Virus record (IMG/VR): IMGVR_UViG_3300031857_000906 | Span: 1 to 30,899 of that record | DNA: 30,899 nucleotides | Origin: a virus | Strand: one strand, 5' to 3' | Part shown: positions 5,433 to 30,045 of the stretch, one piece after another | How positions within the stretch are numbered: position 1 is the stretch's first letter | Layout: each line of letters starts with the position of its first letter | The notes under the pieces: generated by a model | The model's database searches: none | Told to the model about the DNA's origin: nothing | Seen by the model: only the letters and a program-made list of their open reading frames with translations | Translations under genes and position numbers: made by a program

Positions 5433-5500
5433 CCAGTCTCCAATTCTTCCCACTTCATAATCTTTATTTTTGTATATATTAAATATATATTATTCCCTTT

Positions 5501-10138: not shown

Positions 10139-10155
10139 TAATTCTTATTTCTTTT

Positions 10156-10187
10156 TATATAAATATACTTTTTTATCTATTGTCTTT
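10156..10187 (-). promoter_or_regulatory. Late promoter-like element 1 (portal block)
   Basis: Minus strand AAAGACA (10187-10181), 13 bases ending in G, then TATATTTATATA (10167-10156). It lies 17 bases before the portal ATG. One of six copies with identical 13-base spacing. Confidence 0.72.
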
Positions 10188-10188
10188 T

Positions 10189-11469
10189 TTATTGAACGAA
10201 AGTCCAACTACCACCTCCACCACCACTTGCTAATGATGTATAGTTAGTAATGTTTGTAGTTCTTGTTAAGCTACTTCTAAATGTTGAAACAGGGCTTCCA
10301 AGGCTGGCATCTATATCAGAAAAAGATGCAGCAACAATAGAATGTGTTCCAGTAATTGCTAAAAATGCATTAGTTGATGATGTAAAGGACGAAAACTCAG
10401 GAAAAACTCTGGCCAAAGCACCAGTAGAACCATTTCCAGCAGTATATAATTGTGTAATTGAATGTGTTGGTCCTGATGATAGTTCAACTCTTGGAACTAA
10501 AGTATAGTTAATACCATCTGCTGCAATTTGATTTACTAATGTTGTATTAATAGACCCACCAATCATTCTATTACTACCAGCAAATCTTATTATACCAGGA
10601 TTTGTTGTCCCTGAACTTTGCTGAAGTTGATACAGTGTCATATTTTGAAAATTGAGATTACTATCTAAATTGACAGTAAATCTTGCACCATTATATAAAC
10701 GGTTCTCAAGATAAACTGTTCCTAATTGCAAAGTTGATGTATTAAAACTAAATGTTAGACCGGTTGTTCCTGATGGTGAAAAAAGATATACAGAAGGTGG
10801 TGTAGAAAAAGTTCCAGAGATATACCTAAAGGAAGGTATCTGCGCTGTGTTGGTTGTAAAATTGAATACACTACCAGCCGCAAGCGTTATATTCGCATTG
10901 GCATTTACCACAACAGGAACTGTAAATCCATTCGTAGAAACAGCTCCAGTGTTTAATGCCATTGATTGAGTTGGGTTTAAAACTACTGTTATAGTTGAAC
11001 CAGACGACTGACCAGATTGAAATGTTGTTGATGGTGCTGATATACTTAGCGTCGCTCCTAACATTATTACACCTGTCGTGCTACTAAATACATCAGTGAC
11101 TTGCATATCATCTAAAAGAGTTTTAGTCCCAGCTCCAATACCAAAAGCAACTCTTGGTATAGACTTACCATTAGTTCTTATCGAGTGTGCAGAGTTGAAT
11201 GTTATGTTTGCAGTTTGAACTATGTTCATCGCACTAACGAATGTTGATGTTAGTGATGCTCCACTTATAGTCCAAGCCGCATTAACAGTTAAAGTATTTG
11301 TGTAATTAGTAAAGTTAAAAGTCCTTGCGGCTGATGAAACATTCACAGTCAATTGACCTGATGTTGCAGTTGCTACAACATCATCAGCAGATGTAGGAAC
11401 TACACCTTCTACCCATGTTCCTGTTGCATTATAATTTCCTCCCGCGTTACTTATTGTTCTTGTAGCCAT
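10189..11469 (-). CDS. Beta-rich tail adhesin / fibre protein
   Basis: A 426-residue protein rich in Ser, Thr, Asn and Gly with short alternating hydrophobic strands throughout, as in beta-solenoid fibre proteins. The N-terminus (GGNYNATGTWVEGVVPTSAD) resembles the start motif of surface adhesins and phage fibres. The extreme C-terminus is a five-glycine tract followed by SWTFVQ. It probably binds the host surface together with the large fibre encoded just upstream. No enzymatic motif is seen. ATG at 11469 overlaps the preceding stop. Confidence 0.6.
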   Translation of the reverse strand: MATRTISNAGGNYNATGTWVEGVVPTSADDVVATATSGQLTVNVSSAARTFNFTNYTNTLTVNAAWTISGASLTSTFVSAMNIVQTANITFNSAHSIRTNGKSIPRVAFGIGAGTKTLLDDMQVTDVFSSTTGVIMLGATLSISAPSTTFQSGQSSGSTITVVLNPTQSMALNTGAVSTNGFTVPVVVNANANITLAAGSVFNFTTNTAQIPSFRYISGTFSTPPSVYLFSPSGTTGLTFSFNTSTLQLGTVYLENRLYNGARFTVNLDSNLNFQNMTLYQLQQSSGTTNPGIIRFAGSNRMIGGSINTTLVNQIAADGINYTLVPRVELSSGPTHSITQLYTAGNGSTGALARVFPEFSSFTSSTNAFLAITGTHSIVAASFSDIDASLGSPVSTFRSSLTRTTNITNYTSLASGGGGGSWTFVQ

Positions 11470-11696
11470 TAATTTATCACTTCATTTTTTGTAGTCCAAT
11501 CAACTATTAAATCTGAAAAATCATATGTTTGCTTTTCTAAAAACTCATCAGTTAATTCATCTATTCTTTTTAAGATAAATAGGTTTATTTCTCTATCAGA
11601 TAAACCTTTATTTAAAATTATTTCCCATTGTCTCTCATCATATGAGAATAGTATGTTTTGATAATCATCAACTTCGCTATTTACAATCCATTCCAT
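11469..11696 (-). CDS. Unknown small acidic protein in the fibre block
   Basis: A 75-residue acidic, mostly helical protein between the large fibre and the adhesin, overlapping both at start and stop. Size and place would suit a fibre chaperone or connector, but there is no motif to prove it. Confidence 0.6.
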   Translation of the reverse strand: MEWIVNSEVDDYQNILFSYDERQWEIILNKGLSDREINLFILKRIDELTDEFLEKQTYDFSDLIVDWTTKNEVIN

Positions 11697-14600
11697 TATA
11701 GTTTAGTTATTTTTATACTTAAAGTAACTCTTGTTACAGTAGAAGCACTATCAACATTAAATCCTATTATATCTCCAGCTGTTACAGAAGTAGTCCAAGT
11801 TGTTAAAGTTAAATCTTCATTTTTAATAGCTGATGATAAAGTTGGTTTTTCTGAGCCAGCAATCGTATCAGCGACTGTTGGTGGAAAGTTAGCATAAGTA
11901 TCTTTCCAAACATCTATCACACAAGAACCACTAACATCACCTAAAATAGTCCAACCAGTAATTGTTCCATCATAAGGTATCTCAACATAACCTTTAACAC
12001 CAGTTGTGATTGCAGAACCACCACCATCAATTGTAATTCCAAATGAACCTTGAGACAACACTCCCTTTAACGGAGATGCGGTAGCTACTAATCTACCATT
12101 TATACCAATAGCAACAAAGTCACCATCATTAGCTGATAGGTTATCAACTCTAACATCACTACCAAGTAAAGTAAGATATGCAGGTTCTACTGAAACCTCG
12201 TGTGTATTTATACCATCTGTTGAGGTTGTTGATACATATGCAGGTGTAATAGTTTGAGTTGATGTATTTGTTCCATCAGTTGATGTTGTTACTATTGTTC
12301 CGTCACTATTATAAAAAGTCTCACTATAAGTAGCTGAACCACTACTATTTGTTGATTTTAGTTGTAAGAAGGATGGACGGGTTGCTAAAAATGAATACTC
12401 ATCAACATTTACAGGACTTAAAGATTGTATTTGTGTCTCAAATTCTGAAAATAAATAAATTGCGTTAGTTGATGTAATTTCTGCAGTTGTTGGTGTTATT
12501 GTTTGTATTGAAGTATCAACACCATCAGTTGATGTTATTGTTACAGCAGCAGCATTTACTTCATGAGAAGTAGTATTTGTTCCATCACCAACACCTGATA
12601 TAACACTACTTGCTGCCAATGTAATTGATGAATTATCTGTTGATGTAAACACAGACCAACTCGGATTATCATATGTTGATATAAATTCTGAGTATTCAGT
12701 TACATCAGCAACATTTGTTGATTTAATTCTTGTATTTCCACCAACTTGGTCTGGGTCTAATATAATTTCATCAAATATAGTTGAACCAGTAATTGCTAAT
12801 TGTAATGTTTTATTAACAGTATCCTCTGTAATATAGGTATATGTTGAACCAGAACCAGTTGCTCCAGTAGCACCAATTGCACCAGCTTGAGACATAGTAG
12901 CCCAAATTGTTGGATTTGATGGTGGTGGTGGGTCAAGTGACGGAACATTCTGAATACAAATGTAAGAACTTCCATTATATTGAACTACATCATTTACATA
13001 ATAACCTAAATTAATGTCCCAATCTCCTTCCCAAGTAAAAGAAGTTCCTGATGTTCCACTTGTTCCAGCAGGACCAGTAGCACCAATCGCACCAGCTAAT
13101 TCAAAAATGTTAAAATCTGGACCATTTATGATAGGACTTTCATTTGCGCCAGTCCAGTTGGCAACATACACATCAAACCAATACTGAGTTGATGTTGATA
13201 ATCCTTTTATAATACCACTTAGATTTATAGGGTCTCTATAATTTGATTGTGCTGATGTTGAGGTATGTCCTATGTCTAATTTTATCTCAGAGTTTATACC
13301 AGTTGTAGCGTCTCCACTTGATGGCGCACTTCCAGTTCCGTATCTAACACCAACAATTAAACCACCACTTTGATAGTTTATTGCAAATAAAGAAGTTATA
13401 TAAACATCTCCTGTTGAACTTGGTGTGAAGTAAAATCCACCATTACCACCCATCATTTGACCAGTCGTATCAACATTTGTAAGTGATACAGTTCCACCTA
13501 AAAGTGAATTTTCCAAATTTATAGCTTGATTAGCACCATTAACACCTGATGTTCCCGATGTTCCACTTTCACCACTTGTTCCTGACGAACCATTTTGACC
13601 TGATGTTCCACTTGTTCCAGCAGGACCAGTAGCACCAATTGCACCAGCTAACTCAAATATATTTAAGTCAAATCCATTAATAACTGGGTTTTCATTTACT
13701 GATGCTAAGTTAGCAATTGAGGCATCAAACCAGTATTGAACACCTACTTGTAAATCAGTTATAATACCTGATAATGTAACTGATGTATTCCAAGTTAATG
13801 AACCAGATTGTTGAAGAACACCAGCTTGTAGTGAAATTTCTGAACTTATACCAGTTGTTGTTGCGCCTTGTGTTGGAGCAGAACCAGTTCCATACATTAC
13901 GGTATGTTTCATAGCTCCTTGATTTGCATTTAATGGACCTTGTGAATAAAGTATTGTTATACTTACATCACCAGTTGTTTGTGGTGTAAAATAAAAACCA
14001 CCATTACCACCAATCATTTGACCAGTTGTATCAACATTTGTAAATGAATAAGTTCCACTATTTTTACTTGTATTAAAATTAATTGCTTGATTAACACCAT
14101 TTATTCCTGATGTTCCTGACGAACCATTAGCTCCTGATGTTCCTGATGAACCAGAAGTTCCACTTGTTGAAGAAACAACACCAACAGATGTTAAAACGAA
14201 AGAATAATAAGATGTTCCTTCTGTGTAATAAACTATGCTGTGAGTATTGTTATCGTTATTATCTAAATATAATCTAACTATCATCCTATTAGTAGGGTCA
14301 ATAGTTGTTGTAGGTAGTGTTAAATCAACTGTAACTTCAACTGGTGTAGAAGCATCTACCCAACCAACTAAAGATTTTCCAGAAGATAAAGTTGGTCCTA
14401 TCGGTGTTCCTGAGCTATCTGCTAATTGTATTTCAACATAGTATTCAATACTATCATTACTTGCTTGCTTTAATAAGTGTGTGTGAAATCTTTGAACCCC
14501 ACCAGGTATAACAGCAAAACCTAATTGTGGTGTTATATAATCACTTATCATAACACCTTGTTGATTACTTGTTAAGTTAGTTGTTACAGTTTGTTGAGAA

Positions 14601-15562
14601 GCAGTTGATGGATTTATCGCTAAAACTTTATATCCACTAACATCTGAATTTTGACTTTCATTAAAGTAGTAGATTTGACCAGCTGATATACCAGCAGCAC
14701 CTTGAGCTCCTGATGTTCCAGAAGTTCCATTTGTTCCACTCACACCACTTGTTCCTGATGAACCGCTAATTCCTGATGTTCCTGATGAGCCATTAGCTCC
14801 TGATGTTCCTGACGAGCCATTAGCACCAGAAGTTCCTGATGAGCCATTTGCTCCACTAACACCAGAAGTTCCTGACGAACCATTTATTCCTGATGTTCCT
14901 GATGAACCGGCAATTCCATTTATTCCCGATGTTCCTGATGAACCGGCAATTCCATTTATTCCTGATGTTCCTGATGAACCGCTAATTCCATTTATTCCTG
15001 ATGTTCCCGAAGAACCACTAACACCAGAAGTTCCTGATGAACCGCTAATTCCTGATGTTCCTGATGTTCCATTAACACCTGATGTTCCATTTTGACCAGA
15101 AGTTCCACTTGTTCCAGCAGGGCCAGTTGGGCCAGTTGGGCCTGCAGCACCTGTAGCACCTGTAATACCATATACAGATGGACCTGAACACTCATCATAG
15201 TAAATATAATCTTGGTCTATCTCAGGTGAGTAACAAAAATCACCACCTAAAACAGTCATTAAACCTATTTCTAAAACACCACTTGCTGATGCCACATTCA
15301 AAACACCATTATATGGCGTCTGATAAATTTCATAATCATATGTGCCAGGATTAACAGTAAATCCACCAGCTGTTGAATAAGTTGAACCTTCAATAAACAT
15401 AAAGGCACTATATGCTGATGTAGATGATAAGTTATCACTCATCATTAATGTAACATTACCAGTGTCATTTGATATAAACTTAAATAAGTAATAAACTGGT
15501 GATATGCTTGGACTTAATGTAAAATAAACCTTTTTAGTTTCGCCTTTATTTATCAGTATCAT
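11696..15562 (-). CDS. Large collagen-like tail fibre
   Basis: A 1288-residue fibre. Residues 1-130 form a beta-rich attachment domain. About 132-292 is an uninterrupted Gly-X-Y collagen-like stretch, dominated by GTSG, GSSG and GING units, which would form a triple helix. Two copies of a roughly 155-residue domain follow (each with NVDTTGQM and GGNGGFYFTP), separated by short GTSG tracts. After these comes a segment like small carbohydrate-binding modules (YYVNDVVQYNGSSYICIQ ... PTIWATM), then repeated beta segments with STDGTNTS/STDGINTH. The ending (VIDVWKDTYANFPP) is like C-terminal knobs of phage fibres. It is the likely main receptor-binding protein. ATG 15562 overlaps the small gene before it. 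Confidence 0.85.
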   Translation of the reverse strand: MILINKGETKKVYFTLSPSISPVYYLFKFISNDTGNVTLMMSDNLSSTSAYSAFMFIEGSTYSTAGGFTVNPGTYDYEIYQTPYNGVLNVASASGVLEIGLMTVLGGDFCYSPEIDQDYIYYDECSGPSVYGITGATGAAGPTGPTGPAGTSGTSGQNGTSGVNGTSGTSGISGSSGTSGVSGSSGTSGINGISGSSGTSGINGIAGSSGTSGINGIAGSSGTSGINGSSGTSGVSGANGSSGTSGANGSSGTSGANGSSGTSGISGSSGTSGVSGTNGTSGTSGAQGAAGISAGQIYYFNESQNSDVSGYKVLAINPSTASQQTVTTNLTSNQQGVMISDYITPQLGFAVIPGGVQRFHTHLLKQASNDSIEYYVEIQLADSSGTPIGPTLSSGKSLVGWVDASTPVEVTVDLTLPTTTIDPTNRMIVRLYLDNNDNNTHSIVYYTEGTSYYSFVLTSVGVVSSTSGTSGSSGTSGANGSSGTSGINGVNQAINFNTSKNSGTYSFTNVDTTGQMIGGNGGFYFTPQTTGDVSITILYSQGPLNANQGAMKHTVMYGTGSAPTQGATTTGISSEISLQAGVLQQSGSLTWNTSVTLSGIITDLQVGVQYWFDASIANLASVNENPVINGFDLNIFELAGAIGATGPAGTSGTSGQNGSSGTSGESGTSGTSGVNGANQAINLENSLLGGTVSLTNVDTTGQMMGGNGGFYFTPSSTGDVYITSLFAINYQSGGLIVGVRYGTGSAPSSGDATTGINSEIKLDIGHTSTSAQSNYRDPINLSGIIKGLSTSTQYWFDVYVANWTGANESPIINGPDFNIFELAGAIGATGPAGTSGTSGTSFTWEGDWDINLGYYVNDVVQYNGSSYICIQNVPSLDPPPPSNPTIWATMSQAGAIGATGATGSGSTYTYITEDTVNKTLQLAITGSTIFDEIILDPDQVGGNTRIKSTNVADVTEYSEFISTYDNPSWSVFTSTDNSSITLAASSVISGVGDGTNTTSHEVNAAAVTITSTDGVDTSIQTITPTTAEITSTNAIYLFSEFETQIQSLSPVNVDEYSFLATRPSFLQLKSTNSSGSATYSETFYNSDGTIVTTSTDGTNTSTQTITPAYVSTTSTDGINTHEVSVEPAYLTLLGSDVRVDNLSANDGDFVAIGINGRLVATASPLKGVLSQGSFGITIDGGGSAITTGVKGYVEIPYDGTITGWTILGDVSGSCVIDVWKDTYANFPPTVADTIAGSEKPTLSSAIKNEDLTLTTWTTSVTAGDIIGFNVDSASTVTRVTLSIKITKL
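13070..13533 (-). repeat. Duplicated fibre domain, second copy
   Basis: Approximate limits. It encodes the second roughly 155-residue domain of the large fibre, sharing NQAIN, NVDTTGQM, GGNGGFYFTP, YGTGSAP and an identical ending FELAGAIGATGPAGTSGTSG with the copy at about 13617-14093. Middle residues have diverged, so the duplication is not recent. Confidence 0.75.
13617..14093 (-). repeat. Duplicated fibre domain, first copy
   Basis: Approximate limits. Partner of the domain at about 13070-13533 in the same protein. Both copies are followed by the same short collagen-like linker, as if domain plus linker were duplicated together. Confidence 0.75.
14687..15169 (-). repeat. Tandem collagen-like codon repeats
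   Basis: DNA coding Gly-X-Y triplets of the large fibre. Short near-identical units (for example CCTGATGTTCCTGATGAACC on the + strand) recur many times at 9-30 base steps. Such tracts change length easily by slippage or recombination. Confidence 0.85.
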
Positions 15563-15752
15563 CTTCTAAATCTAATTTTTCTATTTTTTCTTCTTTTTTA
15601 ACAATTGGTTTCTTTTCAACATCAAAGATGTAATCAAAACCATTATTAAACCAAAACTCTTTCTTTTCGTCATTCATTTCTATAAAGTAAATTCTTTTAC
15701 CTTTATAAAATATAGAATGTTCGGAGTATTCTTTTTTTATCTTTAGTTTCAT
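15546..15752 (-). CDS. Unknown small charged protein
   Basis: A 68-residue protein rich in Lys, Glu and Asp, with an aromatic middle (KEFWFNNGFDYIFDV) and an acidic C-terminus. ATG at 15752, first gene after late element 2; its end overlaps the fibre start. A fibre-associated role is suggested only by position. Confidence 0.6.
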   Translation of the reverse strand: MKLKIKKEYSEHSIFYKGKRIYFIEMNDEKKEFWFNNGFDYIFDVEKKPIVKKEEKIEKLDLEDDTDK

Positions 15753-15768
15753 ACTCTAACTTATTTTT

Positions 15769-15800
15769 TATATAAATATACAATTTTTGTTTTTGTCTTT
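15769..15800 (-). promoter_or_regulatory. Late promoter-like element 2 (fibre block)
   Basis: Minus strand AAAGACA (15800-15794), 13 bases ending in G, then TATATTTATATA (15780-15769), 16 bases before the ATG at 15752. It directly follows the terminator at 15817-15838, which supports a real new transcription start here. Confidence 0.75.
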
Positions 15801-15805
15801 TTTAT

Positions 15806-15838
15806 AAAACAGAAAACCCACAGTGGGGTAACTGTGGG
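15806..15838 (-). terminator. Intrinsic terminator after capsid/tail-tube block
   Basis: On the minus strand CCCACAGT (15838-15831), loop TACCCC, then ACTGTGGG (15824-15817): an 8-bp perfect stem followed by TTTTCTGTTTT. It lies 33 bases after the tail-tube stop and just before late element 2. Confidence 0.88.
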
Positions 15839-15870
15839 CTCTCTAAGGATATATGAAGTGTGTTATTATA

Positions 15871-16380
15871 TTAGATAATAACAAAGTCGTTTATATCATC
15901 AATTCTGTATGCAGGTTCTGGTTCTTTACCAGTCAAAGTGATTGTAACACCATTAAGGTCTCCAAACGCTTTACCAGTGTTCATAGCACCAGCAGTAACT
16001 CTTACACCATTTTGTTTTCCAACCAACCAGTATTCACCTCTTTGGTCTTTAACGATTACAGATAGATTAGCTTGTGATAAAATCAATAATTGATTTCTTA
16101 AAGCTGCATCATTTTTGTGGAATACTAAGCTCAAGTTTTGAGTAAAGAACACTGTTCCGTTCTCAGTTGAGTAAGCTCCTTCTTGTGCGAAAGAACCTGT
16201 TTCCATTTCTTGCTCAAAAGTGTAGTAAGACACTGTTGAACCTGTAACACCTGTGATGTTGTTGTTTCCATCAAGAGTATATAACTGGTCTGCGTCAAAA
16301 TTTCCAATATAAGCCAATGATATACCACCGATGCTATCTCTACATCCTAATGTATATCCTGTGTTTAATAAACATGCCAT
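15871..16380 (-). CDS. Major tail tube protein
   Basis: A 169-residue protein with the pattern of Bacteroidota siphovirus tube proteins: an N-terminal GCRDSIGGISLAYIGNF, a beta segment with SYYTFEQEMETGSFAQE, and LSVIVKDQRGEYWLVGKQNG near the C-terminus, ending in a beta strand with DLNGVTITLTGKEPEPAY. It would stack as hexamers around the tape measure. It follows the capsid gene after a short hairpin-bearing gap and is itself followed by a terminator, so its dosage can match that of the capsid protein. Confidence 0.75.
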   Translation of the reverse strand: MACLLNTGYTLGCRDSIGGISLAYIGNFDADQLYTLDGNNNITGVTGSTVSYYTFEQEMETGSFAQEGAYSTENGTVFFTQNLSLVFHKNDAALRNQLLILSQANLSVIVKDQRGEYWLVGKQNGVRVTAGAMNTGKAFGDLNGVTITLTGKEPEPAYRIDDINDFVII

Positions 16381-16411
16381 ATTATAATTTTTTTATTTTA
16401 TTTAACTCTAT

Positions 16412-16425
16412 GGGGCCGAAGCCCC
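16412..16425 (-). other. Hairpin with UUCG loop between capsid and tail-tube genes
   Basis: In the minus-strand RNA the sequence GGGGC-UUCG-GCCCC forms a 5-bp GC stem with the extra-stable cUUCGg tetraloop, 37 bases after the capsid stop. No U-run follows, so full termination is unlikely. Protection of the capsid mRNA 3' end or partial attenuation are better guesses. Confidence 0.7.
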
Positions 16426-16461
16426 TTTATGAGTTAATAGTTTTTTTTTATTCCAGTTATA

Positions 16462-17427
16462 TTAGAAACCTCTTGCCCAAACAACATTCTCAATGAATGC
16501 AACTTGAACTCCTAATTTGAATTTAGCTAAAAATCTAACTTCATCAAAATCTTGAGAATACCATACTTTGAAGTCTTCAGCATCAGACAATAAATCTGTT
16601 CCGATGTAAAGGTTAGAAGCCTCAGCTAAAAGAATTCTGTTAGCAGTATTCAATCCTCTTACAGCGATTACTCTGATGTTTGTGCCAGGGTGCATTTGAG
16701 AGAACTCTTGTCCTTGGTTTTCAGCACCAGTGTAAGCGAAATAGTTAGTATCTCTTAAGATTTTAGCATATGTTCTATAGTCAGCATATGACAAGAATAC
16801 ATGTAAGTCTGGTGTGTCAATAACATTAGTATTTACCAATCTTGCTAATTCGTCAATCAATTCAACGATGTTAGAAGTAGCAGCGTTATAAGCACCACCT
16901 GAACCAGTTCCAGCCAAAGCAGATGTTGAATAAGTGATATATCTTCCTGAAGAAGCAGTAACACCAGCATCAAATAATTTTACAAAACCATCACAAAGTG
17001 CTAAGTTTCCAGAACCTGTTGCAGTATTTCCTCTCCAGATAAGGTCTTCAATCATAGCCATGATTTGGTCTCTTTTGTTTTCAGCAAAGATTTGCTCAAA
17101 TGGGATAGCTGTGTTGTAAGAACCTGGGTTCATAGCTACTTGTGTGTAGTATGCTTCAAGGTCGTTAAGACAGATAGCCTCGTTAATTTTTACATCACAT
17201 ACTGTGATAGTTCTTTGGTCCAAAGTAGTTGTTCCAGCAGCGTTCCAACCACAAGCACCAGCCTGTCCTGTTAAAGATGTAGAAATTCTGTTGATAGTTT
17301 GTGCAGATTTAATACCACCTTGCACAGTTACTAAATCAACTGTTCTTCCTCTTAGGACCGCTTCTTTAATCAAATCCGACGCGTTTTGTTCAACATACGC
17401 CGTTAATCCTACTAAATTTAAGCTCAT
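16462..17427 (-). CDS. Major capsid protein (HK97-fold type)
   Basis: A 321-residue protein that builds the head shell. It fits Bacteroidota phage capsid proteins: an N-terminal arm with AYVEQNASDLIKEAVLRG, an E-loop/P-domain region including ICLNDLEAYYTQ, an A-domain with VFLSYADYRTYAKILRD, and a C-terminus with VWYSQDFDEVRFLAKFKLG and VQVAFIENVVWARGF. The 3' half of the gene uses a GC-richer codon choice than its neighbours, as high-expression genes often do. The gene follows the scaffold, and the protease lies one gene further upstream, the usual assembly trio. Confidence 0.88.
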   Translation of the reverse strand: MSLNLVGLTAYVEQNASDLIKEAVLRGRTVDLVTVQGGIKSAQTINRISTSLTGQAGACGWNAAGTTTLDQRTITVCDVKINEAICLNDLEAYYTQVAMNPGSYNTAIPFEQIFAENKRDQIMAMIEDLIWRGNTATGSGNLALCDGFVKLFDAGVTASSGRYITYSTSALAGTGSGGAYNAATSNIVELIDELARLVNTNVIDTPDLHVFLSYADYRTYAKILRDTNYFAYTGAENQGQEFSQMHPGTNIRVIAVRGLNTANRILLAEASNLYIGTDLLSDAEDFKVWYSQDFDEVRFLAKFKLGVQVAFIENVVWARGF

Positions 17428-17459
17428 TTTTTTATATTAATTTTTGTTCCTTTCGGATT

Positions 17460-18287
17460 TTATTTTTTAGCTCTTATGTTTCTAATAGCCTCTAAATTAT
17501 CGTTTTGTGTTTTCTTTTCAGTAATAACTTTATTACTAAATTCAGATTTCAAAGATTTAAATTCTAACTCAGCTGGAGTGTCTTTTACAAAACTTTCCAT
17601 TTTGTCTTCAACTGATTTAGTATATTTAGCCATTTCTTTTGTAACAGCTTCCATTTCTTTAATCTTTTCTTCCATGTCAGCCATTCTTTTTTCCATATCA
17701 CCGAACATTTCTTGTGTTACAGATGAAGTCATACCAGCAGTCTCATCAACATAAGCAGGTGCTTCAACAGCTACTTCTAATGCTACTTCGTCTTCTTTCT
17801 TAGTATCAGGTGTTTGTATTTCATTAATCAAACCTTCAGCATCAACATAGATTACTTTACCATCAGCTAAGTTGTGTTGTCCTTCTGGTGCTTGAACGAA
17901 TTCTCCGTCTTTTTCAACTAAAACTTTGTTACCTACAGCAACATCACCTTCAACTTTAACTTTAGTTCCATCAAGTAATTCAGTTTCTGCTAATTCAATT
18001 TCAATCTCAGGTCCTTCTTCCTCTTCTTCTTTAACTTCACCTTCAATTTTTTCAATCTTTCCAGCAGCAACTACTAATTCTCTTCCATCTTCTAATGGAT
18101 AAGCTCCATCCTCAACTGGGATTAAACCATCTTCTGTTACTAATGAGATTTCCATACCTTCAGCGAAGTCTTCACCTTCAACTCTTAAGATATAATCTCC
18201 AGACTTTGCTTCTTTAAAGCTTTTCATTTCTTCGGCTCCGAATAAAATTGCTTTTATTTCACCTAAAATTGACCTTTTATCTTTCAT
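17460..18287 (-). CDS. Capsid scaffolding protein
   Basis: A 275-residue acidic protein. Residues about 25-160 hold two copies of a beta-rich unit ending in EDGRELVVAAGKIEKIEG and ADGKVIYVDAEGLINEIQ. Residues about 190-250 are a coiled coil (MEKRMADMEEKIKEMEAV), and the C-terminus is basic (AIRNIRAKK), as scaffolds need to bind capsid. It sits directly before the capsid gene. The adjacent XkdF-like protease would remove it during head maturation. ATG at 18287 behind late element 3. Confidence 0.8.
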   Translation of the reverse strand: MKDKRSILGEIKAILFGAEEMKSFKEAKSGDYILRVEGEDFAEGMEISLVTEDGLIPVEDGAYPLEDGRELVVAAGKIEKIEGEVKEEEEEGPEIEIELAETELLDGTKVKVEGDVAVGNKVLVEKDGEFVQAPEGQHNLADGKVIYVDAEGLINEIQTPDTKKEDEVALEVAVEAPAYVDETAGMTSSVTQEMFGDMEKRMADMEEKIKEMEAVTKEMAKYTKSVEDKMESFVKDTPAELEFKSLKSEFSNKVITEKKTQNDNLEAIRNIRAKK

Positions 18288-18304
18288 AAAATTATCTTCT
18301 TTTT

Positions 18305-18336
18305 TATATAAATATACTTATTCCTTTTTTGTCATA
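18305..18336 (-). promoter_or_regulatory. Late promoter-like element 3 (scaffold/capsid block)
   Basis: Minus strand TATGACA (18336-18330), 13 bases ending in G, then TATATTTATATA (18316-18305), 17 bases before the scaffold ATG. The upstream block differs from the other copies by TAT in place of AAA before GACA. The protease gene ends a few bases further upstream. Confidence 0.7.
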
Positions 18337-18341
18337 TTTTT

Positions 18342-18953
18342 TTACGATTTCATAAGTTTTAAGAGCATTTCATACTTTAAGTCATCACTTATATCGTCCA
18401 TTAAAATTGACTTCATCTTATCCAAAATTTCAACTTCTGATGCCTTAACCTCAACACTAAAACCTCTAATAAGACCAGTCTTAAGATAGTTATTCCAAAC
18501 AGTTTCATTTTCAATCTTCATACTAACAAACCAATCACCAGCTTTTATATTCTTAAAACCTAATGCTTTTGCTTTATCCATCTCAGGGTCTTCAACAATC
18601 CAACTCTCAAATACATAAACACCATCAATCTCAAATTCGTGTTCAAGATTTGTGTTATTAGCATTAGAGTTTTTCTTAAAGAATAATTCGGCACATTTTC
18701 TAACAGTATCTTTTGAGAAAAAACCATAATAAAGATTACCTATCTCATCTTTTCTTGGAATGTTAATGTCTGGTCTCATTGCTGGACCAGTTAAAACTCT
18801 TTTTTCGTCATCAATTGTTTTGAATTTTAATGTTTGACTATTAAAAAGAAGGAAATCCTCTTCAATAGCAGGCTCACTAACAAGACTAATTCTTTTTAAC
18901 TCACCCATTACATCATCTAATTCCCACTCAATTAATTTTATTTCTTCATTCAT
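18342..18953 (-). CDS. Prohead protease, XkdF-like
   Basis: A 203-residue protein resembling the XkdF-type phage serine protease. H105 lies in NTNLEHEFEIDG and is the likely catalytic histidine. S117 in VFESWIVEDPEMDKAKALGF belongs to the conserved motif, and S166 in GLIRGFSVEV is the likely nucleophile. The N-terminal RISLVSEPAIEEDFLLFN is a family signature. It would cleave scaffold and possibly capsid. It follows the tape measure gene by 18 bases with no promoter element of its own, so it is read with the tape measure. Confidence 0.82.
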   Translation of the reverse strand: MNEEIKLIEWELDDVMGELKRISLVSEPAIEEDFLLFNSQTLKFKTIDDEKRVLTGPAMRPDINIPRKDEIGNLYYGFFSKDTVRKCAELFFKKNSNANNTNLEHEFEIDGVYVFESWIVEDPEMDKAKALGFKNIKAGDWFVSMKIENETVWNNYLKTGLIRGFSVEVKASEVEILDKMKSILMDDISDDLKYEMLLKLMKS

Positions 18954-18971
18954 AGTAGTTATTTATTTTTA

Positions 18972-21242: not shown

Positions 21243-21260
21243 TTACAAATTATTTCTTTT

Positions 21261-21292
21261 TATATAAATATACTTTTTTTAACTATGTCTTT
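21261..21292 (-). promoter_or_regulatory. Late promoter-like element 4 (tape-measure block)
   Basis: Minus strand AAAGACA (21292-21286), 13 bases ending in G, then TATATTTATATA (21272-21261), 18 bases before the ATG at 21242. The AAAGACA block abuts the stop of the hub gene. Confidence 0.72.
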
Positions 21293-24200
21293 TAGTTAGG
21301 AATTCTTAGGACTTTAAATCCAGTTCCACCACTATTAGCAGCTCCAATTGAAACTCTTTTCAATGTATTAGCTGATATATCCCACAACATAAATCCTGTC
21401 TCACCAGCTGTTGTGTTATTATCAAACTTTGAAGCTGTTATACCAGTATTTATTGTAACAGAAGCTGTTGATTGTATTATAGATGTTGTAAAAACACCAT
21501 TAATCAACTTAAGCATAATCTCATCTTCGGATAATGCAAATGCAGCTGAGTTACCAGCACCAGCATTATCCGAAGTTAATTGAATACCAGGCGTTAGGAG
21601 ATTATTTAATGATATATTATTATTAAATGTTGTTCCATCAGTAATTGTCAATTGTATAGATGTGTCTGACATATAAGAAGTGCTTAATACACCATTTGCT
21701 GAAATAGTTGTATCAATTCCATTCGGATAAAAGTCAATTCTACTTTCATCACCTATTACTGTTTCATATGACTTTATATAACTACCACCACCAGGAAATA
21801 AATTAATCGTATCTTGTCTTGTGTTAGCAACATTTGCCACACTGTCTAATGTTAATTGACCATCACTTGATACATTTTCTAAAACCACTGTAGATACAGC
21901 TGTAAGTGTTGCATTATCATAAACAATAGAACTCATATAAGTTGGCATACTTAACAATCTACTACTATTTGATGAGCCATCACCACTTTCTAATGCCAAA
22001 GATGAACTTTGTATAAATACACTTGAACCATTGCCAGTTAAGCCATCTAAAACATCGTGTTTGATATATTCAGAACCACTTGCTCCTCTTACCAAAGAAG
22101 TCAATGTTACATTATTATCATTTATAATCTGAATTTTAGCAGCTGGTATTGTTGTATCTTCAATATAATAAGATGGTGGAGACCATGGTGTTGATGATGT
22201 TCCAACAGTCACGGTTCCAGTAGTTGTATCAACAACATAAGCATCACCAATATAAACCTTACCACTTTGGGTTGCCGTTATACCATTAGAACCTATTAAT
22301 ATAATACCACCAGCATCACCCTCAACTATATTATCAGAACCACCTAAAACCATTGATGACCCAGATGTAATACTATTTCTATCACCAACAATCATAGAAT
22401 TATCACCAGTCATTATATTGTCTGAACCAACAATCATATTTTTTGCTAAAAACGATTGAGTGCTTCCATCAGCTAAAAATCTTGTAATTTTACCACCAGA
22501 AACATTACCATTACCAACAACAACTCCACCACCAGCTGATGAGTTTCCAAATCCAACTGCCAAATCAAAAAGAACATTAAATGGTCCAGTAGGTCTTGTA
22601 GGGTTTGATATAACAGTTTGTGTTCTTTGTCTTTCCCATCTAACACCATCAACTATTTTAAGTAATTCAACCTTTGTAACACCATTTTGTAAAGGTTTAT
22701 AATCAATAATTTTATTAACATAATAGTAACTATCAAGAATAAAAATCTTTGTATAGAAATTATCTTTGATATATCTAATGTCATATTCATCTAAATAAAA
22801 ATAAGATGTTATTAACCTACCAGTTTCAATTTGTCTGACATAATCACTCCAATAAGTGTTAAACATATTGTTATCTGTTATGAAATCCCAATCATCATAA
22901 TAATAGTATTTGTTTGTTCCAAAATTTATGTCAATTTCTGGTTCAATAGGGTCATCAAAGTGTCCAGCATATGGGTATTTGCTAAAACTTTCAGAAGCAG
23001 ACCCACCAGTAGTTGGTTGATAAGTCCAATTCCAACCATCACAATCTCTCAATCCACCATAGTAAAAAATTCTTGGTTGAACCTTTGGATTAGTTGGGTC
23101 AATGCCTGGAACAATTGCATTAAAAGGAGTTTTAACAAGTGGTGTTGGTGAAAATGAACTTTCAATTCTTTCTTCACCTTTAACAAAGTCATTATCAAAA
23201 TAGTATTTGTATTGACCATAAACATCACCTGTTACATCAGAATAGTTTTTATTATATTCATCATTATCAGCTTTATAACTCCAAATCATTAATTTAGATT
23301 GTAAGTCTGATAAAAGTTCAATCTCATCGGGTGATGAATAATCTTTTTTACTTGTCCAATCTACTATCTCACCTCTTTCATAGAAATCAGGCCTTGTATC
23401 AAAGATTAACTGCTTTGGATTTTCAGGATTTATCTGTATGTAGAGATTATACCTTCTAATCAAATCTGTTAGGAGGTCTTTTTGTTTAATTTTATCTGGT
23501 AGGTATTTAGCTAAATCAACATATTCGTTCTGTGTTATTTGTCCTACTATTGCCGTATTTCTAAAGAATGTTGGTTGGTCAGTGCTTCCAAATTTATTTC
23601 TAACCTCAACAGTAACTGTTATTGGTTGCGTAAAAAACCAAGATGCTGCGATTTTTATAGGTCTATATCTAACTCTGACTTTATTACCAACAGCTAAATT
23701 CACTTGTGGTAATGTAAACTGAACTGGTAAATCAAACTGTTGAGAACCACCAGGTGCTAATGTAATTGATGTTCCAGTATAACTATAAACACTTGTTTCA
23801 CCTGAGTTCCAAGTGCTCCAAGCAGTTCCACCCCATATCTCAACCTTAACTTCCATTTTCCACTGAGGCCATAAGTTAGGGTCAGCACTTGAAAATCTCG
23901 TAATTGTTGTAGATGAACCTGTATTATTTTGTAACTTTAATCTTGTTTTTAATAATAATTCACCACTATAAGCACCGTTATAATTTACATCCCATTGATA
24001 AGTTGTTGTATTCCAGTTATTGTCATTATCAAAATAATCATAACCAGTTGATGGAGTATCAGCATTAAATTGTGCAGTTGCGAAAGATGATACATAAGCA
24101 AAATCTTGATTAGCATTCCAATTAGGATATGCTGTATTAGTATAACTTTGTGTTCTACCAACTCTAAACTCTCTTTCTCTTCTATCAGCTTCATCAACCT

Positions 24201-24879
24201 TTGGCCTACCATCCGTCACATAAGAAATGCATTCGTGATTAAATTGGTCATTGTTTGCTAATGAACCAGTCCAGCCAAATCCTGCTTCTCTAATCATTTG
24301 GTCTAAAATAGCTCTATAATATATTGCTGGGTAAAAATAATCTACACTATATTGACTATCTTTTGTGTGAGTTCCAAACATAGGATAAACATAGCCATCT
24401 TCCCAAGTATGTGTCCAACTATTCTTAACATTAGTATTAGAAAAGGTATGGCCAAATTCCCTCATATCAAGAAGGTTAATTGTCTTTTCACCTATAACAG
24501 ACATCAAATCTACAGAGTTGTTATAAATTACAACCTCATAACCAATTTGATTACCTTGATTATCTACATTGTTTAGTTTAGTTATCTTTCTTAATTGTAA
24601 GAAACCATCCATTACAACCTCAGTATTAACAAGTAATTTAGCCGCTGTTCTTTTATTAGGATTAAACATTGTAAAATCTGCATTAACATCAAATAGATTT
24701 CCAAACCAATAGTTATTCTTTTTAGTTCCTGGCAAGACTATTGTCTTACTGTAAGCAGCATTTCTTTTTGAGATGTCTTTTATATCTGCTATACTATATT
24801 GTAAAGCAATCTCTATCTCCTGCGTCATATCTAACTCGGCAGTTGATGGCTCATTTATAAATAGTTGTATGTAATTCAT
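21292..24879 (-). CDS. Tail hub / adhesin protein
   Basis: A 1195-residue protein. The N-terminal third has the signature of Bacteroidota tail-tip proteins (DIKDISKRNAAYSKTIVLPG, then FGNLFDVNADFTMFNP and VVMDGFLQLRKI). This is followed by a long beta-rich middle with many Tyr and Trp. Residues about 800-890 contain head-repeat-like units (NSMIVGDRNSITSG, SSMVLGGSDNIVEG), as in YadA-type trimeric adhesins. The C-terminal part is beta-rich and ends GGTGFKVLRIPN, like other phage fibre ends. It probably forms the tail hub with a host-binding extension. ATG 24879 overlaps the stop of the previous gene. Confidence 0.75.
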   Translation of the reverse strand: MNYIQLFINEPSTAELDMTQEIEIALQYSIADIKDISKRNAAYSKTIVLPGTKKNNYWFGNLFDVNADFTMFNPNKRTAAKLLVNTEVVMDGFLQLRKITKLNNVDNQGNQIGYEVVIYNNSVDLMSVIGEKTINLLDMREFGHTFSNTNVKNSWTHTWEDGYVYPMFGTHTKDSQYSVDYFYPAIYYRAILDQMIREAGFGWTGSLANNDQFNHECISYVTDGRPKVDEADRREREFRVGRTQSYTNTAYPNWNANQDFAYVSSFATAQFNADTPSTGYDYFDNDNNWNTTTYQWDVNYNGAYSGELLLKTRLKLQNNTGSSTTITRFSSADPNLWPQWKMEVKVEIWGGTAWSTWNSGETSVYSYTGTSITLAPGGSQQFDLPVQFTLPQVNLAVGNKVRVRYRPIKIAASWFFTQPITVTVEVRNKFGSTDQPTFFRNTAIVGQITQNEYVDLAKYLPDKIKQKDLLTDLIRRYNLYIQINPENPKQLIFDTRPDFYERGEIVDWTSKKDYSSPDEIELLSDLQSKLMIWSYKADNDEYNKNYSDVTGDVYGQYKYYFDNDFVKGEERIESSFSPTPLVKTPFNAIVPGIDPTNPKVQPRIFYYGGLRDCDGWNWTYQPTTGGSASESFSKYPYAGHFDDPIEPEIDINFGTNKYYYYDDWDFITDNNMFNTYWSDYVRQIETGRLITSYFYLDEYDIRYIKDNFYTKIFILDSYYYVNKIIDYKPLQNGVTKVELLKIVDGVRWERQRTQTVISNPTRPTGPFNVLFDLAVGFGNSSAGGGVVVGNGNVSGGKITRFLADGSTQSFLAKNMIVGSDNIMTGDNSMIVGDRNSITSGSSMVLGGSDNIVEGDAGGIILIGSNGITATQSGKVYIGDAYVVDTTTGTVTVGTSSTPWSPPSYYIEDTTIPAAKIQIINDNNVTLTSLVRGASGSEYIKHDVLDGLTGNGSSVFIQSSSLALESGDGSSNSSRLLSMPTYMSSIVYDNATLTAVSTVVLENVSSDGQLTLDSVANVANTRQDTINLFPGGGSYIKSYETVIGDESRIDFYPNGIDTTISANGVLSTSYMSDTSIQLTITDGTTFNNNISLNNLLTPGIQLTSDNAGAGNSAAFALSEDEIMLKLINGVFTTSIIQSTASVTINTGITASKFDNNTTAGETGFMLWDISANTLKRVSIGAANSGGTGFKVLRIPN

Positions 24880-26678
24880 TATCCTCTTTGTTGCATATTT
24901 TTATTTGATAATTCAAATGTTAAAACATAATTTATCAATTGCTCGTTTATAACTTGCTTTCTTTCTATTGATGAAACATTTATATTAATCGCTAAAATAA
25001 CACCATCAGGTCTAACCCAATAAGCTTCTGGACTTTCAAATAACTCCATTAAGTAATCAGAAGTTGTTTGATTAACCCAATCACTATTTAATGTATATTG
25101 TTCTACAACAACAGTATCTAAACTCTTTCTACCTCTATCCCAAGTGTTATATGACCATTGTTGTGTTGCTGGTGCATAGGAACCATAGTTCTGTTGATAA
25201 TCAACTCTATTTATGTTTCTTGTTTCTCTATGAACCTTATCAAATGTGTATGGGATAAAACTTCCCATTTTATCCATAAAGATAATTTGCATCTTATCAT
25301 AAATACTACACTTATTAACAATAGTGAAGGTTTTACTTGCTATCGTCTTAACATTAGATGTATTTTCACACCATATTTCTAAAGTCGTTGTTGAGCCATT
25401 AACTATACCAGCATCAACTAAATCTTTTACACTTCCATTGATTTGTAGAAATCTTCTTTGGTCATTTGTGATAGTTGTAAATGAATTATTCACACTAAAT
25501 GTTCCAACATTAGTTTTAATTCTCAATCTACCAATTTCACTATTAGCATTTTGATATACATTTAAAAACATATAACTATCAACATCTAATTCGTAACCAT
25601 CAAAGACATTTGTAAAGAATTTACCATTACTAACTGTTTGTGCATCCCATTCGTCATAATTCCAACTAATGAAATCAACAAAATCTAAAACACCATTGAA
25701 AACATATTTCTCAGGAAATGAACTTGCTGTTGTAGTAACTAAACTACAATTTGTTGCTTCAGAAACTGTAAAAGATGTATATGTTGTAATAACTGGTAAT
25801 CCAGTTATTTGCCAATTTCCAACGGGAGGACAAGATGTAATACTTGATGTCGCAGCATGCCACTTACCATCAGGTGCTTGAATAACCCAGTATTGTGTTG
25901 ATGTTGGTGCATATGTTTCAACTCTCATAGAATAACTTAGTCCGTTCATCGTAAATGTAAAACTTGGATAACCATTAATAGTTCCAGTTGAACCTAAATT
26001 AGTAACACTCTGGGAGCCACCAGCAGTTACACCAGTAGCATTTATACAACAAGTTGGGTCTTCATAAATTGTTAATGTTCCAACTGGACTTGTAGTTAAT
26101 TGATAATCAGCATATGTTATAACACCACCTTCAGCTGGTGTGTTTTGAACATACAAATTATCTGTTCTAACAATCCATCTTGAACCTGTTGCTATAACAG
26201 CCGTTACATAGTGGGCTCCATTGTATTCTGGAACCGTATAACCTGGGTCTTGACTAACATAAATATAATCACCAACAGAAAACAATGGCTGCGGACCACC
26301 AGTTGGGCCTATAAATCCAATATAAGCTGTTGCTCCTACTGCTTGATAAATGTTATCATAGAATTCCCACTCTTCTCTGAACTCATCATAAAAAGTTACT
26401 GAATAACTCGCAAATGATTGTGTTGCTATATTCCAACCAGTTAAGCCTGGTGTGAAATCATAACTAACTCTATTTTCTAAATGTTTGTGTAAATCAACGA
26501 TAATATATCCTTCTGGATTGACAGGTGTTTTCATTCTTGTAACCATTTCACCTCTACAATAAACATCTGTAACCAATTGGTAGTTTAATCTACTTTGTTC
26601 TGATGAAGTAGCTACGATTATAACTTGATTATAAGTTGGCATCAACTCTTGCGGAGCTCTTCTAATTGTTAAACTCAT
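24879..26678 (-). CDS. Tail tip / distal tail protein
   Basis: A 599-residue protein. The N-terminus (SLTIRRAPQELMPTYNQVII and GYIIVDLHKHLENRVSYDF) and C-terminus (VRPDGVILAININVSSIERK) match tail proteins found just before the hub gene in Bacteroidota phages. The middle (about 110-300) is an inserted beta-rich region with several cysteines, perhaps a carbohydrate-binding insertion. FNGVLDFVDFISWNYDEWD near residue 330 marks the return to the core fold. It opens the tail-tip block behind element 5. Confidence 0.65.
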   Translation of the reverse strand: MSLTIRRAPQELMPTYNQVIIVATSSEQSRLNYQLVTDVYCRGEMVTRMKTPVNPEGYIIVDLHKHLENRVSYDFTPGLTGWNIATQSFASYSVTFYDEFREEWEFYDNIYQAVGATAYIGFIGPTGGPQPLFSVGDYIYVSQDPGYTVPEYNGAHYVTAVIATGSRWIVRTDNLYVQNTPAEGGVITYADYQLTTSPVGTLTIYEDPTCCINATGVTAGGSQSVTNLGSTGTINGYPSFTFTMNGLSYSMRVETYAPTSTQYWVIQAPDGKWHAATSSITSCPPVGNWQITGLPVITTYTSFTVSEATNCSLVTTTASSFPEKYVFNGVLDFVDFISWNYDEWDAQTVSNGKFFTNVFDGYELDVDSYMFLNVYQNANSEIGRLRIKTNVGTFSVNNSFTTITNDQRRFLQINGSVKDLVDAGIVNGSTTTLEIWCENTSNVKTIASKTFTIVNKCSIYDKMQIIFMDKMGSFIPYTFDKVHRETRNINRVDYQQNYGSYAPATQQWSYNTWDRGRKSLDTVVVEQYTLNSDWVNQTTSDYLMELFESPEAYWVRPDGVILAININVSSIERKQVINEQLINYVLTFELSNKNMQQRG

Positions 26679-26695
26679 ATACTTTTATATCTTTA

Positions 26696-26727
26696 TCAAT
26701 AAATATAGTTTATAACAAATTGTCTTT
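26696..26727 (-). promoter_or_regulatory. Late promoter-like element 5 (tail-tip block)
   Basis: Minus strand AAAGACA (26727-26721), 13 bases ending in C, then TATATTTATTGA (26707-26696), 17 bases before the ATG. It varies only in the last three bases of the second block, which helps define the conserved core as TATATTTAT. Confidence 0.7.
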
Positions 26728-28198: not shown

Positions 28199-28215
28199 AT
28201 TCCTAATTTATTTTT

Positions 28216-29166
28216 TTAACTAACCACAAATGTCGTAAGTCCGAGCACACTTGTTATATCATAGTTACCAATTCCACAACTATCTCCGATGTTTGCTTCG
28301 TTATAAACAACTAAATCACCTTCGCCTGGTGTTAATGGTTGTAATTGATATAACAACCAATTATTTCCAATTTTACCCAAAGCCCAAGCATTTGTAAATG
28401 TTACTGGGCCAGCAGCAGACCAAGCAAAAGCATAGACTATATCAAGTGGTGCGTTTCCATTATAATCAAAAATACCATAAGCGTTGATTGATAGATAATC
28501 ATTCCAACTAATGCCATTTGGTTCATATACAAACTGTGTAGAAAGGTCATTATAGTTTTCGTAAGCTACTGGTTGTAGTGTAAAATCAATTTGGTAATCA
28601 ACATAATGTATCTCTGTTATTTCAGCACAACTTTGTGTAGGTGATTGTGTCGGACCAACTGGTGGGTATAAATCATCTGTAATAGGTGATATACAAGGGT
28701 TCTCAAGTGGTGCTCTCAATCTAATCTGAGCCATATGACCATTAACATCACCAGTATCTTCGTGAAAGAATGGTTCAATTTCTATGTCATCTAATAAAGC
28801 AAGACCAGTAAATAAACCTAAACTATCCTCACTAATAACATTTATCATATCAACTAAAATAGTAAAAGTATCAGATGATATATCTAAACCATTATTAGAG
28901 TTCTCACCATAAGCCTGATAAACATTTGGTTGGTCATTTACTTTATCACCAACTCTTAAAACAAAACTATACTCAATAGCTCTGTATTTATTTAGTTCTG
29001 TATAATTTACTCTATGAGGTATATCGTTTTGTATCCATAAATAAGGATAGTATTTTATATCATCTATAATGTCATAAAGTGGTCCATCACCAAATGCATT
29101 AATTCTTGGGTCAGCATTTGCCAGTTGTTTAAACCTATTCACTATATTAGCAATTGTTACAGCCAT
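28216..29166 (-). CDS. Tail-region protein of unknown function
   Basis: A 316-residue protein, ATG at 29166. The N-terminus (IVNRFKQLANADPRINAFGDG followed by YYPYLWI) resembles a family found in Bacteroidota phage tail clusters. The body is rich in aromatics and beta strands, with several Pro and Cys (CISPITDD, SCAEITEIHY, SCGIGNYD). A tail-completion or terminator role is plausible from position between the tail chaperone and gp10-like genes, but I cannot name it. Confidence 0.6.
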   Translation of the reverse strand: MAVTIANIVNRFKQLANADPRINAFGDGPLYDIIDDIKYYPYLWIQNDIPHRVNYTELNKYRAIEYSFVLRVGDKVNDQPNVYQAYGENSNNGLDISSDTFTILVDMINVISEDSLGLFTGLALLDDIEIEPFFHEDTGDVNGHMAQIRLRAPLENPCISPITDDLYPPVGPTQSPTQSCAEITEIHYVDYQIDFTLQPVAYENYNDLSTQFVYEPNGISWNDYLSINAYGIFDYNGNAPLDIVYAFAWSAAGPVTFTNAWALGKIGNNWLLYQLQPLTPGEGDLVVYNEANIGDSCGIGNYDITSVLGLTTFVVS

Positions 29167-29175
29167 TTTTCTTTT

Positions 29176-29448
29176 TTATTTTTTATTTTGTTTTCTTGTC
29201 ATCTCTACATGTTTGTCTCTTTGATGGAACATACTCAACCAATTAAGACAAGCAATATAGTTCATTTCATACACCTCTTCAGGTGTCAAATTTAATTCTT
29301 TTACCAACTTATGCACCATTAAGTGCCACTGCCATTTCTTATAATCAAAACTTCCAGTGTCGGGAGCTGTTGGTTGGCCTTCTTCTACAACTTTTCTTTT
29401 ACCAAAGTAACCTTCATAGTTATAAAAGACACCTTCCCTCCATCTTAA
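29176..29448 (-). CDS. Frameshift extension of tail assembly chaperone (gpT-like part)
   Basis: A 90-codon frame in the -1 phase that continues straight from the end of the chaperone frame and ends at TAA 29178-29176. It has no nearby start codon; its first in-frame ATG is deep inside at about codon 44. The product (LRWREGVFYNYEGYFGK ... EEVYEMNYIACLNWLSM) is a sensible helical protein with strong Trp/Tyr/Leu content, so the frame is under coding selection. It would be made only by slippage at 29448-29454, giving a 272-residue fusion. This parallels gpGT of phage lambda. Confidence 0.75.
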   Translation of the reverse strand, partial: LRWREGVFYNYEGYFGKRKVVEEGQPTAPDTGSFDYKKWQWHLMVHKLVKELNLTPEEVYEMNYIACLNWLSMFHQRDKHVEMTRKQNKK

Positions 29449-29993
29449 AAAAAATCCTTTAAGTGATTGACATCAGCCACACTTAAATTCTTTCTAAATA
29501 GTTCCTTCATCTCTTCATATTCCTCAGCAACGAATGGACCAGGAATTTTAACTTCCTTACCACCTCTATTTACTACCTTAACCTTTCTTATCAAAATAGG
29601 TAGCAGGTTTGTTAGTAATTTACTTACCTCAGTATTACCAATTAGTAATTCCATAGAAACCATATCACCCATTTCTAAACTATCCAAATTTTGAATAGCC
29701 ATATACTCTTGACCATCAATAACATAGTTCATTTTTCTTGTATTGATGACTTCAGTAGATGCCCATTCACAAGCTGTTGCCAATTCTTCAAATGACTTTT
29801 TAGTCATCTTACTTAAACCTTCTTGAGGCGCTCCTGTTAATATACTCAACATTTCAATTGAGTATTGATAACGAGATTTATACTCTGATAAAAGACCAGC
29901 TAAATCAACTATCTTTTCAAACATTTCTAAAGTAACCTCTTCCCAACTTTGTGGCATTTGGTATTCCACTCCTTCTAATTCAATTATTATCAT
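29445..29993 (-). CDS. Tail assembly chaperone (gpG-like part)
   Basis: A 182-residue protein. The N-terminus (MIIIELEGVEYQMPQSWEEV) and the helical body with an acidic C-terminal half are typical of Bacteroidota phage tail chaperones, which hold the tape measure during tube assembly. It starts at ATG 29993 behind AGGAAAT and late element 6. The zero frame ends in GAT TTT TTT TAA, and the run of eight T is a slippery site leading into the 29176-29448 frame. It is unusual that the tape measure lies five genes away and that tail tip and hub come in between. Confidence 0.75.
   Translation of the reverse strand: MIIIELEGVEYQMPQSWEEVTLEMFEKIVDLAGLLSEYKSRYQYSIEMLSILTGAPQEGLSKMTKKSFEELATACEWASTEVINTRKMNYVIDGQEYMAIQNLDSLEMGDMVSMELLIGNTEVSKLLTNLLPILIRKVKVVNRGGKEVKIPGPFVAEEYEEMKELFRKNLSVADVNHLKDFF
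29448..29454 (-). other. Programmed -1 frameshift site
   Basis: The heptamer T_TTT_TTT, in the correct X_XXY_YYZ phase, is followed at once by a zero-frame stop (TAA). Slipping back one base reads TTA AGA TGG and enters the open 90-codon frame. The purine-rich AAGATGGAGGGAAGG follows within a few bases; I did not find a clear stimulatory stem. Confidence 0.75.
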
Positions 29994-30013
29994 ATTTCCT
30001 TTTATAACTTTTT

Positions 30014-30045
30014 TATATAAATATAGTTTATTAAACTTTGTCTTT
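30014..30045 (-). promoter_or_regulatory. Late promoter-like element 6 (tail-chaperone block)
   Basis: Minus strand AAAGACA (30045-30039), 13 bases ending in C, then TATATTTATATA (30025-30014), 20 bases before the ATG at 29993. It is the first late element downstream of the sigma-like gene in transcription order. Confidence 0.72.

Follow-up and report, generated by a model that had tools for sequence, protein, structure and literature searches.

The window analysed here (the whole stretch of 30,899 nucleotides) contains six copies of a two-part element, GACA-N13-TATATTTAT, all on the minus strand and each preceding a gene block, together with a gene of the sigma factor family. We consider it very probable that the phage's own two-domain sigma factor, encoded at 227-856, directs the host core RNA polymerase to these six elements, and to a degenerate seventh, as its late promoters. 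Both promoter function and lateness are what we infer from a motif that is repeated before late genes and absent elsewhere in a genome carrying its own sigma gene. The features concerned are listed below; GACA starts at 30042, 26724, 21289, 18333, 15797 and 10184 in the six copies.

30012-30042, minus strand: putative late promoter 1 (GACA 30042-30039, N13, TATATTTA 30025-30018), with orthologous sites in G003, G005, G006 and G016; predicted start A at 30012, 19-nt leader to the ATG at 29993
26694-26724, minus strand: putative late promoter 2, before 24879-26678 and 21292-24879; predicted start 26694, 16-nt leader
21259-21289, minus strand: putative late promoter 3, before the tape measure and protease genes; predicted start 21259, 17-nt leader
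18972-21242 and 18342-18953, minus strand: tape measure and protease, behind putative late promoter 3
18303-18333, minus strand: putative late promoter 4, before 17460-18287, the capsid-type gene and 15871-16380; predicted start 18303, 16-nt leader
16462-17427, minus strand: capsid-type gene, with 17460-18287 and 15871-16380 behind putative late promoter 4
15810-15845, minus strand: terminator-like hairpin of 15 pairs with a T-rich tail, between the capsid block and putative late promoter 5
15767-15797, minus strand: putative late promoter 5, before 15546-15752 and the tail fibre gene; predicted start 15767, 15-nt leader
11696-15562, minus strand: tail fibre of 1288 aa with collagen-like segments
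10154-10184, minus strand: putative late promoter 6, before the portal and connector genes; predicted start 10154, 16-nt leader
8990-10138 and 8406-8990, minus strand: portal and connector, behind putative late promoter 6
3053-3083, minus strand: degenerate seventh site, GACA-N13-TATATATA (motif 3083-3059), with one mismatch, before gene 2820-3053
2458-2823, minus strand: terminase small subunit, between the seventh site and the sigma gene
1253-2455, minus strand: terminase large subunit, between the seventh site and the sigma gene
227-856 including the stop, minus strand: sigma-70/ECF-like protein of 209 aa with a GTG start, assigned on TIGR02937 and family evidence

A sequence-only reading of this DNA had described the six elements, and all of them were found where it placed them, on the minus strand, with a spacer of exactly 13 in 6/6. 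Its further details were reproduced as well: TATATTTAT is preceded by G in four copies and by C in two, and the one copy without AAA before GACA, at 18333, has TAT instead. The distance to the genes required correction, as the second box had been put 16-20 bases before the start codon and TATATTTAT ends 19-23 nt before the ATG. No other copy occurs on either strand of the whole record, and a reversed-pattern control gave 0 matches; the comparison of matches inside genes with those before genes, which the same reading had proposed as a check, came out at 6/6 before genes. With a position weight matrix, the six sites score 33-43 bits, compared with 7.5 bits for the next best position in the window and 17.5 for the highest score in 300 simulated order-2 Markov sequences, but this matrix was built from the same six sites, and the pattern count is the cleaner statistic. 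Since the exact pattern occurs 0 times in the 300 simulations, the earlier judgement that six copies are hard to explain by chance holds, and the elements are real and far beyond chance.

The window ends in an exact 122-bp direct repeat (1-122 and 30778-30899), and an identical contig (L007/G001) spans the junction. The viral genome is therefore complete at 30,777 bp, either as a circle or circularly permuted, and with the circle closed the gene list is complete as well. Essentially every gene is encoded on the minus strand. The genes identified include both terminase subunits, a methyltransferase, the connector (DUF6712), the portal, the collagen-like tail fibre, a capsid-type protein, an XkdF-type protease and the tape measure. 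Among named phages, Nonlabens P12024S/L come closest (portal 28% identity). No RNA polymerase gene was found among nearly all genes of this complete circle, MotA or AsiA homologues gave no match in Pfam or PHROG scans, in which several small genes match nothing, and scans for Rfam families and tRNAs were empty.

The sigma gene, which was absent from the sequence-only reading, adjoins the terminase genes and, round the circle, lies shortly before the first putative late promoter. Its product matches NCBIfam TIGR02937 (sigma70-ECF) over residues 19-205 of 209 with an E-value of 4.7e-5 and a score of 23.1 bits, below the curated cut-off of 42.9; it has no Pfam match, and a scan for Sigma70_r2 (PF04542) was negative. 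In length and extent of the match it fits the layout expected of an ECF-like (group 4) factor, which has regions 2 and 4 in about 160-210 aa and no region 1.1. The family gives clearer matches than this single member. Homologues with a TSPF[HYF]KK signature were confirmed at no fewer than 102 places in IMG/VR (at least 102), and among 35 aligned members, 17 match TIGR02937 (E<=0.01, best 2.4e-14), 9 match a PHROG sigma family and some match Pfam Sigma70_r4_2 or Sigma70_r2. When the family profile was compared with PDB sequences, RpoE ranked first (7e-4), with other sigma factors close behind, the match lying in the C-terminal half. For an AlphaFold model of 227-856 (pLDDT 82.8), Foldseek returned nothing significant from the PDB (best E 0.49). 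With the model of a homologue from a Mucilaginibacter pedocola prophage (pLDDT 79.9), the leading matches are sigma factors (best E 5e-3, prob 0.97), and isolated region 4 structures are matched at prob 0.8-0.99. The top match of the family by both profile and structure is PDB 9n9q chain C, the RpoE of an RNA-guided transcription complex. We read 227-856 as a divergent two-domain sigma factor. The protein is conserved in G003, G005, G006 and G016, and no homologue of it, or of four other family members tested, was detected among 50,697 phage records.

The motif, which the sequence-only reading had suggested looking for in related phages, recurs in related contigs before the same genes and in a strand-specific manner. 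Where the capsid protein is 67-93% identical, the genes that lead the blocks have orthologues with the element in front of them, and genes inside the blocks are, with few exceptions, without it; the site of putative late promoter 4 is also present in G006/L012. We scanned 21 contigs, 18 of which have a sigma homologue by tblastn, for [A/G]ACA-Ngap-TATA[T/C]TTA at gaps from 4 to 26. On the coding strand, 46 matches have gap 13 and 22 have gap 14 (68 together), with 0-6 at every other gap, as against 0 and 2, respectively, on the opposite strand; a [C/T]ACA control showed no spacing peak in the same contigs. The constant spacing claimed earlier thus stands for the window and not for its relatives, where it is 13 or 14. 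At these two spacings, the last base of the second box is A in 68 matches and G in 0. Sites lie within 45 nt of a start codon in 62 of 73 distinct cases, a count in which ORF starts were assigned as the first ATG, the IMG/VR contigs are mostly fragments and related contigs are not independent.

The upstream box varies with the sigma gene. GACA is typical of the window's sigma clade, and deeper branches mostly have AACA. On the sigma tree, GACA contigs fall in one supported clade (99/97), except for one tied case (G039); this clade also holds L067, which has a single AACA match that is not before a gene. The G label requires 3 changes on the tree, compared with 9.3 in shuffles, a clustering that is consistent with co-evolution of sigma and box and that plain descent would produce as well. 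Two distant sigma clades (C1 and C2) have no such sites, which argues against the motif being a general property of AT-rich phage DNA. The motif is present and no sigma gene was seen in G007, G009 and G011, all fragments of 12-18 kb, and G031 has a sigma homologue without the motif. De novo EM motif searches run per contig mostly returned coding repeats; the motif emerged clearly from just two sequences, the window and the Mucilaginibacter prophage, in the latter as AACA-N13-WATACTTA. Bipartite k-mer counts gave nothing usable for the distant sigma clades, and a scan for consensus sigma-70 promoters was uninformative, with fewer sites than in shuffles. Overall, the comparison supports the phage-specific regulon put forward by the sequence-only reading, as the motif travels with the phage sigma gene.

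The prophage ties this system to a cultured host. A sigma homologue is encoded in a prophage of M. pedocola TBZ30 (Bacteroidota, Sphingobacteriaceae), and 5 of the 6 matches to AACA-N13-WATACTTAW in this 7-Mb genome lie in that prophage, on one strand and within an 11-kb stretch (reversed-pattern control 0); the pattern was derived from the same prophage, and the result tests specificity, not discovery. The prophage shares with the window a terminase, a tape measure, a phrog_24921 protease, a phrog_11320 capsid-type gene and a phrog_11226 portal. It fixes the host phylum for the sigma family, from which the host of the window's own virus would be of the same phylum.

The sixth base after TATA[T/C]TTA (TATATTTA) is a purine in 73/73 sites (A in 68, G in 5), and neighbouring positions are mixed. 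At ten sites it coincides with the first base of an ATG, but the remaining sites have a purine there too. We take it as the predicted transcription start; as host sigma-A boxes lie at -12 to -5 (PMC9723704, PMC6847099), a start at the fifth or sixth base would be expected independently. The distance to the ATG at the 62 start-linked sites is 3-6 nt in 16 and 12-28 nt in the others, with none at 7-11 nt. The 3-6 nt group would give leaders of 0-1 nt, except at one site, 3 nt from the ATG, where either the transcript would begin within the gene or a later start codon would be used. Accordingly, the ATG coincides with or adjoins the predicted start at about one quarter of the start-linked sites, which would make these messages leaderless. 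The very short leaders foreseen by the sequence-only reading are thus predicted both in the window (15-19 nt) and, down to 0-1 nt, in its relatives. In Flavobacterium psychrophilum, leaderless mRNAs make up 5.5%, and they are a small minority in cultured flavobacteria (PMC9723704).

In the mechanism that we propose, host sigma-A would transcribe the early genes, and the phage sigma would then be made from the terminase block, exert feedback via the seventh site on the block that encodes it, and open the six late transcription units at once. Its region 4 would contact the [A/G]ACA box at about -30 to -27 and its region 2 would melt TATATTTA at about -13 to -6, with RNA starting at the purine 6 nt downstream of TATATTTA; leaders would be 15-19 nt long and absent at the seventh site. 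Co-occurrence, tracking by clade and elimination are what link the sigma factor to the motif. The seventh site is the only one-mismatch copy at spacing 13 on the coding strand of the window, and an exact version precedes the orthologue of gene 2820-3053 in L056, L057, L058 and G006. The ATG of this gene begins exactly at the predicted start (leader 0), and the gene is the first of the TerS-TerL-sigma block, so sigma may amplify its own expression through this site. The hairpin at 15845-15810 is as expected for separate transcription units: its stem is longer than that of any other terminator-like site and it falls at the boundary of two blocks, although the overall number of such sites is not above that in shuffles.

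Several observations count against this proposal: the low scores of the 227-856 protein itself in sigma models and structure searches, the contigs that have the motif or the sigma gene but not both, a gap of 13-14 between GACA and TATATTTA that is shorter than the usual sigma-70 or ECF geometry, and a difference of a single base between TATATTTA and the host -7 box. In one rival explanation, host sigma-A reads TATATTTA as a weak TAnnTTTG, a phage activator bound at [A/G]ACA recruits it and the sigma-like gene does something else. MotA of phage T4 at middle promoters is the model for such an activator. The single-base difference from the host box speaks for this rival; the upstream box also lies closer in than a -35 region normally does, a placement shared with activator boxes, and the window encodes other small uncharacterised proteins, such as 4637-5179 (weak TIGR00270 match). 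We nevertheless regard this explanation as unlikely. An activator that works with sigma-A would be expected to accept or even favour G as the final base of the box, where the sites at spacing 13/14 have A and never G (68 vs 0), and the motif and the sigma family travel together, with the upstream base changing by sigma clade. Unaided recognition by sigma-A can be set aside. Primary sigma promoters of Bacteroidota have the form TTTG/TAnnTTTG (-33/-7) (PMC6847099, PMC9723704), with a TTG box about 19-21 nt upstream of the TA, whereas [A/G]ACA lies at 13-14 nt. The resemblance to TAnnTTTG that had been pointed out earlier is real, since TATATTTA fits TAnnTTT and is similarly placed with respect to the start; its final base, however, is A where the host has G. 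With the G absent, the upstream box different and closer, and a virus-specific distribution, the elements are not host sigma-A promoters.

Signals of another kind at block borders, such as RNA processing sites, translation enhancers, or packaging or replication sites, would explain why the elements are close to start codons, and their A-rich flank also suits translation initiation in Bacteroidota (PMC6847099). The internal spacing, however, is constant although the ATG may be anywhere from 3 to 28 nt away, which places the start codon outside the element. Moreover, the element is missing before most genes within blocks, a site can extend into the end of the preceding gene, and the geometry with its purine at a fixed offset is promoter-like. 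We therefore judge such signals very improbable. A short, strong consensus repeated before late blocks would also be expected of promoters for a single-subunit, T7-like phage RNA polymerase, but no RNA polymerase gene was found among nearly all genes of the complete genome, and two-box sites with a 13-or-14 spacer are sigma-like; we rejected this candidate on gene content and give it next to no credence.

The proposed recognition by the phage sigma has parallels among studied phages. Salmonella phage 7-11 encodes the late sigma SaPh711_gp47, which acts with the host core polymerase at eight dispersed bipartite promoters, GTAAtg-(16)-aCTA, before late genes, with starts 6-9 bp from the element (PMC8948821). 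The window resembles it in its phage-encoded sigma, its dispersed bipartite elements before late genes, the proposed use of host core polymerase and a predicted start at a like distance from the element, and differs in sequences, spacing, host phylum and an apparent leaderless class. Phage phiEco32 uses the sigma gp36 at six middle/late promoters, tAATGTAtA, with starts 6-8 bp downstream (PMC8948821); the window would share with it a phage sigma, six dispersed promoters and a start a few bp downstream of the element, but the phiEco32 promoters consist of a single element with no upstream box, unlike the two boxes of the window. The Nonlabens phages P12024S/L share the portal homologue and have a gene annotated as sigma-70 region 2 near their terminase, but their gp33 is without the TSPF signature and near-motif matches lie inside genes; the motif is not shared by P12024S or BS-TP3. 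In phage T4, gp55 directs late transcription from TATAAATA with no upstream box, and middle promoters have a MotA box near -30. The AT-rich -10 element before late genes and the box near -30 recall these two classes, respectively, while gp55 promoters are without an upstream box and no MotA or AsiA homologue was identified in the window.

In the literature searched, we found no description of the motif itself or of a phage sigma-promoter pair for Bacteroidota phages. It seems reasonably probable that phages of Bacteroidota have a widespread sigma factor family, so far undescribed, that recognises [A/G]ACA-N13/14-TATAyTTA, that the upstream base switched between G and A as sigma diverged and that many of the promoters fire at the start codon, which would leave a share of late virion mRNAs leaderless in what is, to our knowledge, a phylum without Shine-Dalgarno sites. 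Bacteroidota are a major phylum in gut, soil and water, with promoters unlike those of the E. coli type. The pair allows transcription starts to be predicted with single-base precision, offers many natural variants of one recognition system (G or A in the upstream box, spacer 13 or 14) and could serve in Bacteroidota genetics as an expression signal that is phage-specific and orthogonal. The switch would be common to many uncultured relatives and to the prophage of a culturable soil bacterium, in which it could be tested.

Several further sites were noted. An exact GACA-N12-GTATATTTATATAAA copy in L024 (6132-6102, minus strand) has a GC-rich hairpin and a T run no more than about 15 nt downstream, and near-identical stretches occur in nine contigs (L025, L027, L028, L030-L033, L036 and L037). 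This type of phage differs from that of the window and has no sigma homologue in the fetched stretch; the copy may be due to chance or be the promoter of a very short RNA, and we set the ten contigs aside as regulon members, with chance or unrelated use the probable explanation. In the window, a two-mismatch copy, GTAA-N13-TATATTTA, lies at 5504-5480 (minus strand) before gene 5166-5453 and is probably not functional, as it is not conserved in G016. A GC-rich hairpin, GGGGCTTCGGCCCC, at 16381-16461, just before 15871-16380 in an otherwise AT-rich region, is a possible attenuator or terminator within the capsid block. Finally, 6585-7562 (minus strand) encodes a 325-aa protein that has no Pfam or PHROG match and is 79% identical in G005, and the conserved stretch upstream of it, TTTGTTATTCA...TTTAATATATA, could be an early promoter.
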